From Bacteroidota bacterium (GTDB lineage: Bacteria; Bacteroidota; Bacteroidia; Chitinophagales; Chitinophagaceae): 64,000 nucleotides of DNA. The translations under genes and the position numbers were made by a program. The stretch's first letter is position 1. Each line of letters starts with the position of its first letter. The stretch covers positions 1 to 64,000 of the forward strand of contig JAIUNW010000001.1 of the NCBI GenBank assembly GCA_020161535.1, given 5' to 3'. Under the pieces are notes generated by a model that did not search any database, had not been told where the DNA came from, and saw only the letters and a program-made list of their open reading frames with translations. Positions 56,231 to 63,127 of the stretch are shown here, one piece after another.

Positions 56231-59200
56231 TTATTTAAAAGCAATGTATTTGGATTCGATCTTAACGATCTTGTTCATAAATTCTTTGAATGCGTTGTAT
56301 TCTGCCGGACCAATATTCTTTCGGTCAAGCCTGGCTTTTCTGACAACCCGAACGGTTGAGTCGTTGACACGGATGAAGTCAATTGAATATACACTTCCCG
56401 CAAATTGATAGTTTGCCGAAGCCGGTACTTCCATCAGCTTCTTACCAGCAGGCGCTTCTATGTTGATGTCGGTTAAATAGTCGTCGACTTCCTCATAACG
56501 CCAATATTCCAGGGGAAAAGCACGCAGATCTTTGGAAAAATTATCAAGGGTGGCAATGATATCGCCGTAGGGCACACGAACCATATTCATATCTCCTACC
56601 TCAATTAACTCGTTTTTGACAACAGCAGAATAATTATAAGACACCCTTTCTGCTGTATTGTCCAGTCCATTAAATTCTACGCTTGTAATGGTTATTGCGT
56701 TTTTAAAACTACCGCCAATGGCTTCTTGCAATTTTTCCTTTTGTTTTTCGGCGCTCAGGTTTTTATAAGCAGAACGAATGGAACTGCTCAATGCAGCTGT
56801 TTTGGTAACATTGACTTTCAGTTGCATATCGGTCCCCTCAAAACGGATGGTCGCTTTGCGCGCTACGCTATCTATCAGGCGATTTGGTGATACAATGGGC
56901 TGCAGTCCGGTTTTACTGGCTTCTTTTTGCGCGGCAGGAATGAAGAGCGACATGGAACCGGGAAGATTATAGGGCAAACCGGCGAATGGCAATTCATTGT
57001 CTGTTAATTCCAGGTAAAAGGGTTTGCCATCCACTTGTAACAGTACAATGCAGTGGTTGAATTCCAAACTGGGTAAAAGCATTTCGTTGGTTCCATTGTC
57101 GCGCGTTGCCACCAAAACCAGGTTGGCTTCCAGTCCCGCCAGTTCTGCTAGTGACACAAACAAAGCTGACAAGTCTTTGCAATCACCCAGCCTGGTGTTC
57201 AAGGTAACCGAAGGTTTTTGTGGAATATAAGCGCCTTGTCTGAACGAAACATGGCTATATCGAATATTCTGCTGAATATACTGGTATATTTTTTCAGCTT
57301 TTTCTAAGGCCGACAGTTTTGCAGTATTGGCGAACAACGAATCATATACTTCTTTCAGTTCGTATTCTCCATCCAACTGGAAATGACTGATATCGCTGTA
57401 CCAGTCTACAATTTTATCCCAGGAAGAAACCGTTGAAATATGTAAAGTGGGTGATACATCTGTTAGATTCGGCATGTATGGCTCCTCGTCTATTGGTTTG
57501 GGGTCATTTACCTGCCAGGTGTATAATTTAAATTCGTCCACCTCTTTAATGGTCGGTTTTGTACTGCCATTGCTCACCGCTTGTTTAAAAGGAATAGACT
57601 TGTCAATTAACAGGCTGTATCGTAAGGTGGTTGCCGGTTGAAATGAACAAAGTAGAAAACGGTCCCAGAAATCGGCTGCCAACCGACCGGTTGCATAGTT
57701 CTGTATTCGGTATTTGATAACAACTGCATCACCGGCTTCAAGAGAGGTGAACACCATTTCGTTGCCGTTTTTTTCTGCCTGGTGTTTGCTGCCGTTTTTC
57801 TTCACGACTTCTGCCTTTTCTATCAGCAGGGTTTGTGTGTATTCATTGTATGAAATATAGCTTTCTTTCCACTTGTCGATACCCGCCGCAGTGTTGATCT
57901 TGATCACCATGGTCGTAAACTCTTCCACAGCACCTTCTCCATACACGATCACTTGTCTTTCGTTGAGGAGATACGAAAAGCTATAATTTCCCGACACTAC
58001 ATTATTTTCATTCTTCTTAATGAGGTCGTACACGTCGGTTTCAGGGAACTGTTTGGCAAGGTCTTTTTTGTTTGATAGTGCTCTTATCTTTTTCCGGGTT
58101 TCATAATTATTGGGATCAAAAAGCAAAGCATTCTTATAGGCAGCCAATGCTTGCTCGCTCAAGGCTTCCTGTTCTTTAACCACGCCCTTGTTATTCCAAT
58201 AAGTTGCAACAAAAGGCGCTATTCCCAACACGGTGTCGCAATATAGAGCGGCAGTTTTATAATCCTGTTGTTGGTAATAATAACTCACCAGGTCGGTCTG
58301 AAGATTAGTCTCGTAAGGGAATATCGATAGTAGTTTCTGAAAGCAGGCCAGGGCTTGTTCTTTCTTTCCCTGTGCCAAATACTCGTTGCCGAGTTTTTTA
58401 AGCATGTCGTATGCAAAATTGCTGTCCAGGTATTTTTTATAAACGTTTATCGCGCCATCTATATTCTTGTAAGCGTTTTTTTGTACGTCCACAGCCAGGT
58501 CAATAATAGACTGGTTTTCGGGGTATTTTTCATAGGCCGTCTGAATCAGCTTGATGGCTTCGTCGTGTTTTTTTCTCGCATTTAATATTTCGATATGCAG
58601 TTGAATTAAATCGCTGTTTTCGGCATATTTCTTTACCATATTTGCGTATTGCTCTTCTGCCTCTTCGTATTTCTCCTCATTCATCAATTGCCTTAGGCCC
58701 AGTTGTAATGCAATCAGACAATTAGGGTCTTTTTCTTTCATGCGTTCAACTTCTTGCGAAAGCAATGTTTGGTTTTGCGCTTTTAATAAACACTGAATCA
58801 ACTCAAAGCGTAGCAACGAATTGTTAGGGTATTTTTTGAGTATGGGTTCTATCGCCTTTCGCGCTTCAAAACTGCGTTGGTTTCTTAGATATGCCTGCGA
58901 CAACAGCAAATAGTTCACCGGATTGGTTGGATCTGACTTTATTTTTTCCTGAAAAAAGGTTTCAGCAAAGTGCTTTATTTCAGTTGTTGTGTTGCCTGAA
59001 GCCGCTTTTTGATATGGCTGTACAAGGTTGCTATCTTTTAGCGCTTCCAGGACATTCCCGTTTTTATCGGTACATCGAATGATAAAATTGGCGGTTGCGC
59101 TATTTGTGTAGCCTATCTGTACTAAAATTCGGTTATACCCTTTTTGCAAGTGACAAGCCGATTTATAGTAATCGAGTTCGGTAATTATTTCTTTCGCGGT

Positions 59201-59983
59201 TGAAATAACGAGGGCGTCGTTTACCCAAACTTTTAGAGAGCCACCACCACCTGCATTGAGCAGAATGTCGGCTTCTTCGGGAGAATAAACAAATGATTGT
59301 GCATAAACGATGGCAGTGTTATCAGGGATATATGTGTTGACCGACATCCATGCATCCTTGTCTGAAGAAGCGGGAACGAACCAGTGAATGGGGGCTTTAT
59401 TTTTTCCTGAAAAGCTGGCGGTTGATTCTGGATGTGCCAGGGGGCCGTAGTCTTTGTAAAAACCTGTTCCCGACAAGTTTTCAAAAGGACCGGCATATTG
59501 CCATTGCATAATACTCCCCATTTGTTTCCATTCAGCCAAGGCCTGCTCAAAATGGTTGGTTGCCAGGTTATGAGACGCCTTTACATAATGTGCTGCTGCC
59601 TTAATAGAGCCATTAGGTTGCTTGCTTTGGAAAATATGTTGCAAAAGCGCCATTTGACTAGCCTGTTTTTTACCATATGGGCCCAATACGCCAGCTTCAA
59701 ACCACATGGAATAGAGATATGGGTCAGGTGCATTTACTTTTTGCATGACCAGGTCGTAGAAACCAGGATCAGCCTTATCGTTGCCGTTAAATTTGTCGAG
59801 ATATAAGAGGGTTATATACGCATCAGCCGCGGTGGCCGGGTTCTTCAAGGCTTTCTGTAAATATTCTATCGCTTTCTGTCGATCGTTGCGATGCAGCGCT
59901 TCCCAGGCTTTGTCGTAGTCGTTTGCAAAGGCAAATTGAACAAAAGCAGTTAACAGGAGGGCAAGGAATAAGGGTTTACGCAT
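56231..59983 (-). CDS. Large TPR protein with DUF3857 and transglutaminase-like domain
   Basis: 1250 residues, exported (signal ends VQFAFA). A TPR region covers about 20-640, with units such as KALKNPATAADAYITLLYLD and AYKNALLFDPNNYETRKKIR and a jelly-roll-like insert near 230-310. DUF3857 follows (about 665-850), then a transglutaminase-like core whose predicted triad is Cys935 (RLGDCKDLSALF), His977 (FNHCIVLL) and Asp995 (LELTDNELP). The C-terminal about 250 residues are beta-rich. DUF3857/transglutaminase proteins are widespread in Bacteroidota; the intact triad suggests a cysteine-type amidase, protease or crosslinker, but no substrate is known. It converges on the barrel gene with only four bases between. 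Confidence 0.88.
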   Translation of the reverse strand: MRKPLFLALLLTAFVQFAFANDYDKAWEALHRNDRQKAIEYLQKALKNPATAADAYITLLYLDKFNGNDKADPGFYDLVMQKVNAPDPYLYSMWFEAGVLGPYGKKQASQMALLQHIFQSKQPNGSIKAAAHYVKASHNLATNHFEQALAEWKQMGSIMQWQYAGPFENLSGTGFYKDYGPLAHPESTASFSGKNKAPIHWFVPASSDKDAWMSVNTYIPDNTAIVYAQSFVYSPEEADILLNAGGGGSLKVWVNDALVISTAKEIITELDYYKSACHLQKGYNRILVQIGYTNSATANFIIRCTDKNGNVLEALKDSNLVQPYQKAASGNTTTEIKHFAETFFQEKIKSDPTNPVNYLLLSQAYLRNQRSFEARKAIEPILKKYPNNSLLRFELIQCLLKAQNQTLLSQEVERMKEKDPNCLIALQLGLRQLMNEEKYEEAEEQYANMVKKYAENSDLIQLHIEILNARKKHDEAIKLIQTAYEKYPENQSIIDLAVDVQKNAYKNIDGAINVYKKYLDSNFAYDMLKKLGNEYLAQGKKEQALACFQKLLSIFPYETNLQTDLVSYYYQQQDYKTAALYCDTVLGIAPFVATYWNNKGVVKEQEALSEQALAAYKNALLFDPNNYETRKKIRALSNKKDLAKQFPETDVYDLIKKNENNVVSGNYSFSYLLNERQVIVYGEGAVEEFTTMVIKINTAAGIDKWKESYISYNEYTQTLLIEKAEVVKKNGSKHQAEKNGNEMVFTSLEAGDAVVIKYRIQNYATGRLAADFWDRFLLCSFQPATTLRYSLLIDKSIPFKQAVSNGSTKPTIKEVDEFKLYTWQVNDPKPIDEEPYMPNLTDVSPTLHISTVSSWDKIVDWYSDISHFQLDGEYELKEVYDSLFANTAKLSALEKAEKIYQYIQQNIRYSHVSFRQGAYIPQKPSVTLNTRLGDCKDLSALFVSLAELAGLEANLVLVATRDNGTNEMLLPSLEFNHCIVLLQVDGKPFYLELTDNELPFAGLPYNLPGSMSLFIPAAQKEASKTGLQPIVSPNRLIDSVARKATIRFEGTDMQLKVNVTKTAALSSSIRSAYKNLSAEKQKEKLQEAIGGSFKNAITITSVEFNGLDNTAERVSYNYSAVVKNELIEVGDMNMVRVPYGDIIATLDNFSKDLRAFPLEYWRYEEVDDYLTDINIEAPAGKKLMEVPASANYQFAGSVYSIDFIRVNDSTVRVVRKARLDRKNIGPAEYNAFKEFMNKIVKIESKYIAFK

Positions 59984-60204: not shown

Positions 60205-60210
60205 CTTAAG

Positions 60211-60284
60211 TCGGGACGACTGGATTCGAACCAGCGACCTCTTGCACCCCATGCAAACGCGCTACCGGGCTGCGCTACGTCCCG
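60211..60284 (-). tRNA. tRNA-Pro, anticodon GGG
   Basis: On the minus strand the acceptor stem CGGGACG/CGTCCCG, D-arm GCGC...GCGC, anticodon stem TTTGC/GCAAG (one G-T pair) with loop ATGGGGT (anticodon GGG) and T-arm GCTGG-TTCGAAT-CCAGT form a full cloverleaf. The discriminator is A and no CCA is encoded. It is the sister of the CGG isoacceptor at 4.1 kb and shares most of its arms. Confidence 0.95.
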
Positions 60285-60389: not shown

Positions 60390-61661
60390 ATGAAAGTATT
60401 ACTCCGGCAGGTACTCATCAACGATCCACTCTCGCCTTTTGCGGGCTCCGTTCAGGACATCATCGTTGACAATGGAAAAATTAGTCAGATAGGAAATGAA
60501 TTGGCAGACAGCCATGCCAAGGAGTATAGCCATGCCGGTTGGCAGGCCATGCCCGGATTTGTTGACTCCTTTGCACATTTTAATGACCCGGGTATGGAAT
60601 ACCGGGAAACCATCGAAACCGGTGCCGCCGCGGCCGCTGCGGGTGGCTTCACCACGGTGATGGTCGTACCCAATACCAAACCCGTTATTGATACCAAATC
60701 GGCGGTGGAATACATCGTGGCCAAAAACACACAACTGCCCGCCCGGGTGTTGCCCCTGGGCGCCGTTACCAGGCAGACCGATGGCAAAGAACTGGCCGAA
60801 ATGTATGATATGTTTGCCAATGGCGCCATCGCCTTTAGCGATGGCATTCAACCCATACAAAGTGCCGGCCTGCTGGTTAAAGCGCTCCAATACATCAAGG
60901 CCATCGACGCCGTCTTGATCCAGGTGCCGGATGATACCAGCATCGCGTCCCATGGACTGATAAACGAAGGCATTGTGTCCACCCGGCTCGGCTTACCTGG
61001 CAAACCCATGATGGGTGAAGAATTGATCGTGGCGCGCGATATCAAACTCGCGCGGTATGCCGACAGCAAGATCCATTTCACGGGGGTGAGTTCACCCAAA
61101 TCGATTGAGTATATCCGGCGGGCAAAAGACGGCGGACTCAATGTAACCTGCTCCGTAACCCCCTATCATCTTTTTTTCAACGACGAAGACCTTCTGCAAT
61201 ACGATACCAACCTGAAAGTAAATCCGCCGTTAAGGCGCAAAGAAGATATGTTGTTGTTGCGCAAGGCAGTGCTGGACGGCACCGTCGATTGCATCGCCAC
61301 CCACCACCTGCCACACAATTATGACGCAAAAGTGTTGGAATTCGAATACGCGAAATTTGGGATGATTGGTTTGGAGTCGGCCTACGCTGCTGTGAAAACG
61401 GCCATACCCGAATTGAGCGACAAGCAACTAACCAACCTGTTTTCACGCAATGCCCGCACCATTTTTAAACTGCCTGCGGCTAAGATAGCCTTGGGGCAAG
61501 ACATAGAACTCACGTTGGTGGATCCGCAAGCATCTGCCGTTTTTTCGGCGGCTGATATCCGCTCCAAATCGCGCAATTCAGCCTTTATCGGTCGGGAATT
61601 AAAAGGAAAAATAATCGGCACCCTGTGTGGCAACCGGATGCAAATGAACGCCGGACTATGA
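60390..61661 (+). CDS. pyrC: Dihydroorotase-family amidohydrolase with altered metal-site residues
   Basis: 423 residues with the fold and flanking motifs of dihydroorotase: PGFVDSFAHFNDPGMEYRET, GGFTTVMVVPNTKPVID, GEELIVARDIKLARYADSKI and a C-terminal NARTIFKLPAAKIALGQD. Dihydroorotase closes carbamoyl-aspartate to dihydroorotate in pyrimidine synthesis. However, the usual HxH of strand one is FxH here (Phe61, His63), the usual H in HxxHxS is Gly232 (HFTGVSS), and the catalytic Asp of ATDHAPH is His305 (ATHHLPH). This suggests either a divergent Bacteroidota dihydroorotase or an inactive partner of aspartate transcarbamoylase. The stop overlaps the next start (ATGA). Confidence 0.75.
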   Translation: MKVLLRQVLINDPLSPFAGSVQDIIVDNGKISQIGNELADSHAKEYSHAGWQAMPGFVDSFAHFNDPGMEYRETIETGAAAAAAGGFTTVMVVPNTKPVIDTKSAVEYIVAKNTQLPARVLPLGAVTRQTDGKELAEMYDMFANGAIAFSDGIQPIQSAGLLVKALQYIKAIDAVLIQVPDDTSIASHGLINEGIVSTRLGLPGKPMMGEELIVARDIKLARYADSKIHFTGVSSPKSIEYIRRAKDGGLNVTCSVTPYHLFFNDEDLLQYDTNLKVNPPLRRKEDMLLLRKAVLDGTVDCIATHHLPHNYDAKVLEFEYAKFGMIGLESAYAAVKTAIPELSDKQLTNLFSRNARTIFKLPAAKIALGQDIELTLVDPQASAVFSAADIRSKSRNSAFIGRELKGKIIGTLCGNRMQMNAGL

Positions 61662-62185
61662 CCACAGGAAAATTATCATTGATTACCGGCCTTGGTGCCG
61701 GTGTTTTGTACACGGCTGGTCTGCTTATCAGTCACCAGATGGGCACCGAAGCCCTGTCGGCTTTTCTAAGTGCGTATGCTTTTTTGCCATTGGTGCTAAT
61801 CATCATTGGGCTGGGGGCGGTTTGGCTGCGTAAAAATTTTTCACCTGCACCCGAGTTAAAAGAATTGCTGAAATATGCCTTCCTCGCCTATTTTATTTTA
61901 GAACTCTGTTACGCCCTGTCAAATCTCTTGGTTTTTCGATGGATGGATCCCGAAGCCAATGATGCCGTGATGAAATATTTATACGCCCAAACCGAACAAA
62001 AATTAAAAGACGGCCAGGGTGGCAAAGAAAAACTAGAAGCGATTAAAAAAATGGCCGATTCGGTTAAAGGCCCAATCACCTACACCCAGGTATTGATTGG
62101 GATGGGGCAGCAACTGATTGTCGATTTTATCAAGTCGCTCTTTATTGCTACTATTACCAAACAAACCATTCAACCGAAGCAATAA
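61658..62185 (+). CDS. DUF4199 family membrane protein
   Basis: 175 residues from the ATG at 61658, which overlaps the pyrC stop. Membrane helices are predicted at about 6-25, 35-55, 72-95 and, after a polar loop (110-140), 145-167. The order and spacing match DUF4199, a Bacteroidota membrane family of unknown role. It is followed without any gap by a GT2 glycosyltransferase, an arrangement seen widely in the phylum, which suggests a link to glycolipid synthesis. Confidence 0.78.
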   Translation: MTTGKLSLITGLGAGVLYTAGLLISHQMGTEALSAFLSAYAFLPLVLIIIGLGAVWLRKNFSPAPELKELLKYAFLAYFILELCYALSNLLVFRWMDPEANDAVMKYLYAQTEQKLKDGQGGKEKLEAIKKMADSVKGPITYTQVLIGMGQQLIVDFIKSLFIATITKQTIQPKQ

Positions 62186-63127
62186 ATGGATCTGTCGATC
62201 GTCATACCCTTACTCAACGAAGCCGAATCCTTACCGGAACTAGCGGCCTGGATAGCTCGTGTGATGAAAGAACATGGGTATAGCTATGAAGTCATTTTTG
62301 TGGACGATGGCAGTACCGACAATTCCTGGCAGGTTATACTCGACTTGAAGGCTGAAAACCCGCATATCAAAGGCATCAAATTTCAGCGCAACTACGGAAA
62401 ATCGGCCGCCCTCAACGAAGCTTTTCGCGCCGCTACGGGCGATGTGGTCATTACCATGGATGCCGACCTGCAAGACTCACCCGATGAGATCCCCGGACTG
62501 CGAGCCATGATCCTCGACGATGGTTATGACCTGGTGAGTGGTTGGAAAAAGAAGCGATACGACAATACCCTGACCAAAAACCTGCCTTCCAAATTGTTCA
62601 ATGCCGCTACGCGCAAAGTGAGCGGCATCTACTTGCATGATTTCAACTGCGGGCTAAAATCATACCGACTTAAAACGGTTAAAAGTATTGAAGTATATGG
62701 CGAGATGCATCGCTATATACCGGTGATTGCCAAATGGGCGGGCTTTCGAAAGATTGGTGAGAAAGTAGTAGAGCACCGGGCACGTAAATATGGCGTTACC
62801 AAATTTGGCCTGGATCGTTTTATCAACGGATTTCTTGACCTGGCATCCATCACCTTTGTGGGTAAATATGCCAAAAAGCCCATGCACTTTTTTGGCGTTT
62901 GGGGTACCCTGTTTTTCTTTCTTGGTTTTGTGGCGGTGGTGTACCTGGCCATTGCAAAAATTGTTGATCCAACCGTCAGCTTAAGCAATAAGCCGGTTTT
63001 TTTCATTGCACTCACCGCCATGGTGATTGGTTCGCAAATGTTTTTATCGGGATTTATTGGTGAACTGATCGCGCGCAACGCACCTGGCCGCAACGCCTAC
63101 CTGATAGAAGAAAAAACCGGTTTCTGA
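62186..63127 (+). CDS. GT2 glycosyltransferase, polyprenyl-phosphate sugar transferase type
   Basis: 313 residues. The GT-A core has LSIVIPLLNEAESLPEL, VIFVDDGSTDNSW and ITMDADLQDSPDEIP (DxD metal site). DFNCGLKSYRLKTVK and the RARKYGVTKFG segment precede two C-terminal membrane helices (about 230-255 and 270-293). This is the DPM1/GtrB/ArnC architecture that transfers glucose, mannose or aminoarabinose to polyprenyl phosphate. The start directly follows the DUF4199 stop, and the stop overlaps the next start (ATGA). Confidence 0.92.
   Translation: MDLSIVIPLLNEAESLPELAAWIARVMKEHGYSYEVIFVDDGSTDNSWQVILDLKAENPHIKGIKFQRNYGKSAALNEAFRAATGDVVITMDADLQDSPDEIPGLRAMILDDGYDLVSGWKKKRYDNTLTKNLPSKLFNAATRKVSGIYLHDFNCGLKSYRLKTVKSIEVYGEMHRYIPVIAKWAGFRKIGEKVVEHRARKYGVTKFGLDRFINGFLDLASITFVGKYAKKPMHFFGVWGTLFFFLGFVAVVYLAIAKIVDPTVSLSNKPVFFIALTAMVIGSQMFLSGFIGELIARNAPGRNAYLIEEKTGF

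Follow-up and report, generated by a model that had tools for sequence, protein, structure and literature searches.

A dihydroorotase homologue with a degenerate active site as a probable non-catalytic chain of aspartate transcarbamoylase in a Bacteroidota genome

The stretch of DNA analysed here, the first 64,000 nucleotides of contig JAIUNW010000001.1 from a Bacteroidota bacterium (hereafter the window), contains near its end a plus-strand open reading frame at 60390..61661. Its 423 aa product, read from an ATG start, has the family matches, the alignment and the predicted fold of a dihydroorotase and lacks several of the residues expected in the active site of that enzyme. The locus therefore raises the question of what such a protein, called the pseudo-dihydroorotase below, is retained for.

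The pseudo-dihydroorotase and its active site

Every family model that matched the protein is named for dihydroorotase or a related hydrolase. Its score was 343.8 bits with TIGR00857 pyrC_multi, for which the cut-off is 279.05, and 351.5 with NF006836, the latter under that model's equivalog cut-off of 538 bits. Among solved structures, the nearest in sequence are chains of A. aeolicus dihydroorotase (DHO), namely 4bjh, 3d6n, 6gde and 1xrf (E ~1e-80), and the alignment with that enzyme extends from one end of the protein to the other, making the protein a type-I dihydroorotase homologue over its whole length. An AF2 model built from 59 sequences shows a full dihydroorotase fold (pLDDT 85.9, pTM 0.89) with poorly predicted loops at residues 128-132, 188-204 and 314-317.

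In the alignment to A. aeolicus DHO, five of the eight sites checked differ, with Aquifex His61, Arg65, His180, His232 and Asp305 replaced by Phe61, Asn65, Val179, Gly232 and His305, while His63, Asp151 (Aquifex Asp153) and Asn278 are retained. Counted from the start of the ORF and placed by the same alignment, codons 61-65 (60570..60584, plus strand) read F-A-H-F-N at the site of the HxHxR metal and substrate motif, and codons 305-306 (61302..61307, plus strand) read H-H, the first in place of the catalytic Asp. The protein thus fails the signature of an active type-I dihydroorotase (HxHxR, Asp153, His180, His232 and Asp305). The initial annotation had named the replacements at Phe61, Gly232 and His305, all three of which are exact in this alignment; it had overlooked that Val179 stands in place of His180 and Asn65 in place of the HxHxR Arg.

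These losses do not all carry the same weight. A study of the Aquifex enzyme describes an alpha-site zinc bound by His61, His63 and Asp153, Asp305 being close by, and reports that the activity of a His180Ala/His232Ala double mutant, which removes the beta-site pair, was unimpaired (PMC3880350). Gly232 alone would prove nothing, because A. aeolicus DHO with both beta-site His residues as Ala stays active; the metal argument of the initial annotation is weakened at this position, and the losses of His61 and Asp305 count for more. As judged from the alignment, the loss of the alpha-site residues His61, Arg65 and Asp305 would be the stronger part of the case and would outweigh that of the beta pair, Arg65 of Aquifex DHO being, as we take it, a substrate-binding residue. 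A conserved substrate-binding Arg is described for dihydroorotases in PMC12524618.

The gene is not decaying, as had been noted from its well-kept family sequence, and is under purifying selection. Close same-genus pairs of the gene give dN/dS of 0.06-0.09 at dS of 0.29-0.69, a ratio taken from other pairs in the genus, the window's own pairs being saturated (best dS 2.19, the rest beyond the method). In an alignment of the window protein with 58 near relatives, F61, D151, H305 and H306 are identical in all 59 sequences, and by this alignment the near relatives appear to hold a fixed, refilled pocket. Position 63 of the same alignment departs from His in 29 of these sequences, and none of the 59 has Arg65. 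The picture widens across the class to which the carriers belong, where 45 degenerate copies differ greatly from one another at positions 61, 63, 179 and 305. Among them the entropy at site 63 lies at the 90th percentile of all columns, as against zero in 43 intact copies. Simple loosening is countered by D151 in 44 of the 45 copies, D305 in 21 and H306 in all of them; altogether 19 columns are invariant over these divergent sequences, including E193, G201, E210, H306 and K314.

Such a pattern bears on whether the protein could be a working dihydroorotase with a different set of metals, as the initial annotation had allowed, or one that needs no metal and might serve, for instance, when zinc is scarce. 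An active enzyme of this kind is on record, a Zur-regulated PyrC paralogue without zinc residues being credited with activity in PMC2770081 (citing Brichta 2004), and the constancy of Asp151 and His306 across the class, and of F61 and H305 among the near relatives, would suit it. Nevertheless, the replacement of His63 in about half of the near relatives and of Arg65 in every one makes a conserved metal site built from the remaining His unlikely, the class-wide variation at 61, 63, 179 and 305 argues in the same direction, and no zinc-regulon gene was found among the neighbours scanned. We consider a variant-metal enzyme very improbable.

A second dihydroorotase and the remaining pyrimidine genes

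The window genome holds one other full-length dihydroorotase candidate, of the PRK09236 type, on a separate contig (G000:C18:318531-319868; loci L002 and L389), which scored 659.8 bits against NF006688/PRK09236 (cut-off 535). It had been proposed that the active enzyme lies elsewhere and could be sought as a second dihydroorotase with an intact HxH; a second copy exists, so that the window protein is not the only dihydroorotase of this genome, and its motif is QxH rather than HxH. The Gln is usual for the type, being found in this copy and in 46 of 47 aligned PRK09236 copies; all 47 keep Arg, His, His, Asn and Asp, and 46 of them keep Lys. The solved relative 2GWN from P. gingivalis, which the copy matches at 447 bits, shares the Gln, and a published table (PMC12524618) lists it as having two zinc ions. 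The PRK09236 type belongs to the same superfamily as the window protein, and with its Arg, Lys, His, His, Asn and Asp kept beside QxH we propose it as the active enzyme; by its sequence the copy on contig C18 is presumably a working dihydroorotase. That reading fits three genomes (G012, G095 and G109) in which PRK09236 is the sole dihydroorotase, with no other TIGR00857-type copy at 1e-15. On the residues kept and lost in the two alignments, it is almost certain that the pseudo-dihydroorotase is catalytically dead and that a second enzyme stands beside it.

No type-II PyrC (E. coli type, TIGR00856) was found over cut-off in 52 genomes including the window's own, the sub-threshold matches (43 bits at most) all falling on dihydroorotases already known. 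PyrI (PF01948) was not found in the window genome. Across the phylum sample PyrI occurs in 1 of 198 genomes (G196), whose dihydroorotase copy is intact, and mutual exclusion with PyrI was dropped as a test, being powerless at that frequency. The PyrI of that genome (L041, L273) adjoins one of its ATCase-type genes.

Aspartate transcarbamoylase (ATCase) is represented in the window genome by one gene, on contig C8 in the order pyrR-pyrB-coaD, with a PyrB ORF of 312 aa. This PyrB matched 6pnz, which we take to be the S. aureus ATCase, at 202 bits, and 2at2 and 3r7d, presumably both the B. subtilis ATCase, at 194 and 193 bits, followed by the ATCases of A. aeolicus (180 bits) and E. coli (139 bits). 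The B. subtilis enzyme is described as functioning as a trimer (PMC4581275). The window genome's PyrB is thus at least as close to a set of ATCases that includes partnerless trimers as it is to A. aeolicus PyrB, and its type alone demands no partner. It is also shorter than the P. aeruginosa chain, for which N- and C-terminal extensions are described (PMC7053772).

Distribution, association with PyrB and gene neighbourhood

We surveyed 198 genomes of the phylum, 183 of which match the pseudo-dihydroorotase at 1e-20. The active-site columns were read in the 130 best copies and then in a few more, leaving about 47 matched genomes, mostly weaker matches to other families, outside the count; a copy counted as intact if it kept at least 7 of the 8 sites, and none of the 130 kept 4 to 6. 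In genomes with a PRK09236 match over cut-off, 44 of 44 copies are degenerate (3 or fewer of 8 sites), as against 83 of 86 intact copies in the other genomes. The three exceptions (G001, G006 and G016) and their relative G011 all belong to one family, labelled f11, and pair a degenerate copy with a further dihydroorotase, of a third type, in which HxH is intact. Outside these counts, one more genome (G041) carries a degenerate copy, and another (G087) has an intact copy besides PRK09236. Within the class of the carriers, inferred from named relatives to be Bacteroidia, a degenerate copy is present in 45 of 49 sampled genomes, and all 45 have a PRK09236-type dihydroorotase. Another dihydroorotase was present in every one of the 49 degenerate carriers read (45 of the class and 4 of f11), and this confinement likewise speaks against a working enzyme with an altered metal set.

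The 45 degenerate class copies form one clade (SH-aLRT 100). The f11 copies stand apart from them in a quick tree; an AU test leaves a single clade unrejected (p 0.80), with the constrained tree scoring higher, and two independent losses of catalysis, one in the class and one in f11, were therefore dropped as a set result. In the genus of the window the gene is present in 13 of 15 genomes, its own included, and is missing from G210 (75% complete) and from G207 (96% complete), the latter showing no copy at 1e-50. At three loci from the same genus the gene is identical to that in records of Flavihumibacter solisilvae, Flavihumibacter fluminis and Flavihumibacter cheonanensis, which places the window genome in or near Flavihumibacter. 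Metagenome bins titled Williamsia sp. and Sphingomonadales bacterium (L122, L136) also hold a Chitinophagaceae-like copy and are probably mislabelled or mis-binned.

The presence of the pseudo-dihydroorotase follows the identity of PyrB. The PyrB proteins of all 45 carriers fall in one clade (in a quick tree with 24 of them and in FastTree with all 45), a count that does not amount to 45 independent tests, as the carriers may stem from one or two ancestral events. Against the window genome's own PyrB, the carriers score 421-639 bits, and 37 PyrB rows from genomes with intact copies score 404 at most. Four class genomes are without the pseudo-copy. Two of them (G012 and G095, of one genus) have a PyrB scoring 204 bits to the window genome's own, in G012 (L384) with pyrB lying between argH and carAB; a third (G072) has a PyrB scoring 296 bits and an intact dihydroorotase 225 bases behind pyrB; and the fourth (G166) yielded no PyrB at 1e-50. 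Where the pseudo-copy is missing, then, the native PyrB is missing too, in what we weigh as about two events. The long branches of these odd PyrBs make their place in the tree unsure, an uncertainty that leaves the bit scores unaffected.

Gene order adds to this in f11, where the degenerate copies lie directly behind pyrB in all four genomes with a gap of 23-89 bases. By the measure of pyrB directly upstream on the same strand with a gap under 300 bases, the arrangement occurs in 4 of 4 f11 copies, in 30 of 79 intact copies (81 entered, 79 having both coordinates) and in 0 of 45 class copies. Tree distances over the 45 genomes did not single out PyrB: the rank partial correlation of the pseudo-dihydroorotase was 0.24 with PyrB given the second dihydroorotase and 0.25 with the second dihydroorotase given PyrB, the leave-one-out difference running from -0.111 to 0.061.

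The mean tree distance of the pseudo-dihydroorotase is 1.75 as compared to 0.54 for PyrB, meaning that it evolves faster. Together with active-site columns that are free to vary and the missing copy in the nearly complete G207, this would be expected of a former partner now drifting, selected just for its fold and without a present role. The low dN/dS, the 19 invariant columns and the retention of the gene in most of the class all oppose such drift, which we regard as the least probable of the readings considered.

A different role could be read from the genes that follow. The stop codon of the pseudo-dihydroorotase overlaps by four bases (ATGA) the start of a gene for a DUF4199 protein (61658..62185, plus strand), which is abutted by a gene for a family 2 glycosyltransferase (GT2; 62186..63127, plus strand), with more polysaccharide genes beyond. 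Of 80 named relatives, 79 have GT2 downstream in the same orientation, with a gap of 126-743 bases; in the remaining one (L140) the record stops shortly beyond the gene. DUF4199 was recognised in 10 of the 80 at the threshold used. At 23 loci from the wider class, GT2 lies downstream in 12 (57-69% identity), is absent from 9 and is represented by a weak upstream match alone in 2. On the other side of the gene, just upstream, there is a tRNA-Pro (GGG) on the minus strand (60210-60284), and further up a minus-strand gene (56231-59983) encodes a 1250-aa protein with TPR repeats, DUF3857 and a transglutaminase-like domain.

The DUF4199-GT2 string may be inherited order or may mark a real functional tie. 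If the latter, the protein could have left pyrimidine synthesis for envelope glycan synthesis with the adjoining glycosyltransferases, acting for instance as a scaffold or, through its refilled pocket, as a new enzyme, and the overlapping and abutting frames in the window, the polysaccharide genes that follow and the GT2 linkage would all suit that role. The gene persists, however, at the wider-class loci where the linkage is missing or reduced to a weak upstream match, its co-retention follows PyrB, and the f11 copies sit behind pyrB; a move to glycan synthesis is in our estimation improbable.

A candidate non-catalytic chain of aspartate transcarbamoylase

The known systems that come closest are ATCases with a dihydroorotase-like partner. 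In class A2 ATCase of Pseudomonas an inactive dihydroorotase chain is included, and the PyrB of P. aeruginosa is reported to be inactive without its pDHO (PMC7053772). In S. meliloti, disruption of smc01361, annotated as a dihydroorotase and lying beside pyrB, is reported to cause pyrimidine auxotrophy despite an essential PyrC, and the gene was proposed to be PyrX (PMC5929573). Dead dihydroorotase domains beside ATCase are also described in fungal CAD-like proteins (PMC7053772). The fungal pseudo-DHO is a domain fused into one multifunctional eukaryotic chain, unlike the window protein.

The window protein resembles the PyrC' and PyrX chains in being an inactive type-I homologue of about 45 kDa in a genome with the active dihydroorotase elsewhere and no PyrI. 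Set against the definition of class A2, it has the type-I homology, the lost zinc and substrate residues, the separate dihydroorotase and the lack of PyrI, and it lacks adjacency to pyrB. Unlike the described cases, its gene lies far from pyrB in a DUF4199-glycosyltransferase string, and the association with PyrB is read here from sequence. We would add that adjacency to pyrB, while usual in the described PyrC' and PyrX cases, is no biochemical requirement. Cyanobacteria may have a comparable pair, in which a degenerate PRK07369 copy is accompanied by a QxH enzyme. Within the open-access literature we found no genetic data or paper on such an arrangement in this bacterial group.

In structural comparisons the protein comes closest to a homologue solved with its partner. 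Foldseek and VIA-align both rank 4bjh_A and 3d6n_A first, the Aquifex DHO with ATC bound, with Z of 52.1 and 51.5, which count as tied, being within 1 Z; VIA-align covers just the chains ranked by Foldseek, so that the absence of a chain from it means nothing. The 4bjh_A match has an rmsd of 2.4 over 413 aligned residues, and the Aquifex chains are 34-35% identical to the protein over the whole length. The best whole-length structural match is thus the DHO of the A. aeolicus DHO-ATC complex (3d6n, 4bjh; class A1), a chain that, unlike the window protein, is catalytic with one zinc.

The loops poorly predicted in the model may be of relevance here. Codons 188-208 (60951..61013, plus strand) encode a candidate PyrB contact, of which residues 188-204 have a pLDDT below 50 and lie inside the most conserved stretch of the 45 degenerate copies; the most conserved 26-residue segment in that set begins at 192-193, whereas the whole stretch 181-206 ranks only 108th of 397 such segments. 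In A. aeolicus DHO, three loops including loop A are described as disordered in the free chain and ordered with ATC (PMC3880350). The correspondence between a conserved loop of low pLDDT and a partner-bound loop is only suggestive, and to name the low-pLDDT loops of a predicted model as the PyrB interface is a guess.

With these comparisons in hand, we consider it probable that the pseudo-dihydroorotase is a PyrC'/PyrX-like non-catalytic chain of a class A2-like ATCase, and its partnership with PyrB is, to our minds, a likely one. A structural PyrC'-like partner was one of the two options of the initial annotation, and it gains support from the second dihydroorotase, from the lack of PyrI and type-II PyrC and from the way in which the pseudo-copy follows PyrB identity. 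We infer PyrB binding, stoichiometry, regulation and the inactivity as such. In the proposed arrangement, a dead type-I dihydroorotase (PyrC') would be retained as a non-catalytic ATCase chain, and two trimers of PyrB would be linked by PyrC' dimers in a 6:6 dodecamer. The analogues for this are A. aeolicus, where the partner is active, and Pseudomonas, where it is inactive. PyrC' may be needed for the stability, the activity or the nucleotide feedback of PyrB, and the cyclisation of carbamoyl-aspartate would fall to the separate enzyme of the PRK09236 type.

A more speculative extension, which we hold to be unlikely, is that the pseudo-subunit moved from a pyr cluster to the glycosyltransferase string, its level coupling ATCase assembly, and with it UTP supply, to the envelope's demand for nucleotide sugars while the QxH enzyme took over the chemistry.

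Returning to the PyrC'-like chain, the names of the matching family models mean that such proteins are likely to be annotated as dihydroorotases. If the proposed role is true, the wrong enzyme is named in the metabolic models and essentiality maps that cover a large environmental bacterial group. As compared to the known PyrC' cases, the one proposed here would be new in extending across a class, in having its gene apart from pyrB and in its pairing with a QxH dihydroorotase. It would also offer a case of an enzyme turned structural subunit in which a single phylum contains both intact and dead forms, with genes that are linked to pyrB in some genomes and unlinked in others.
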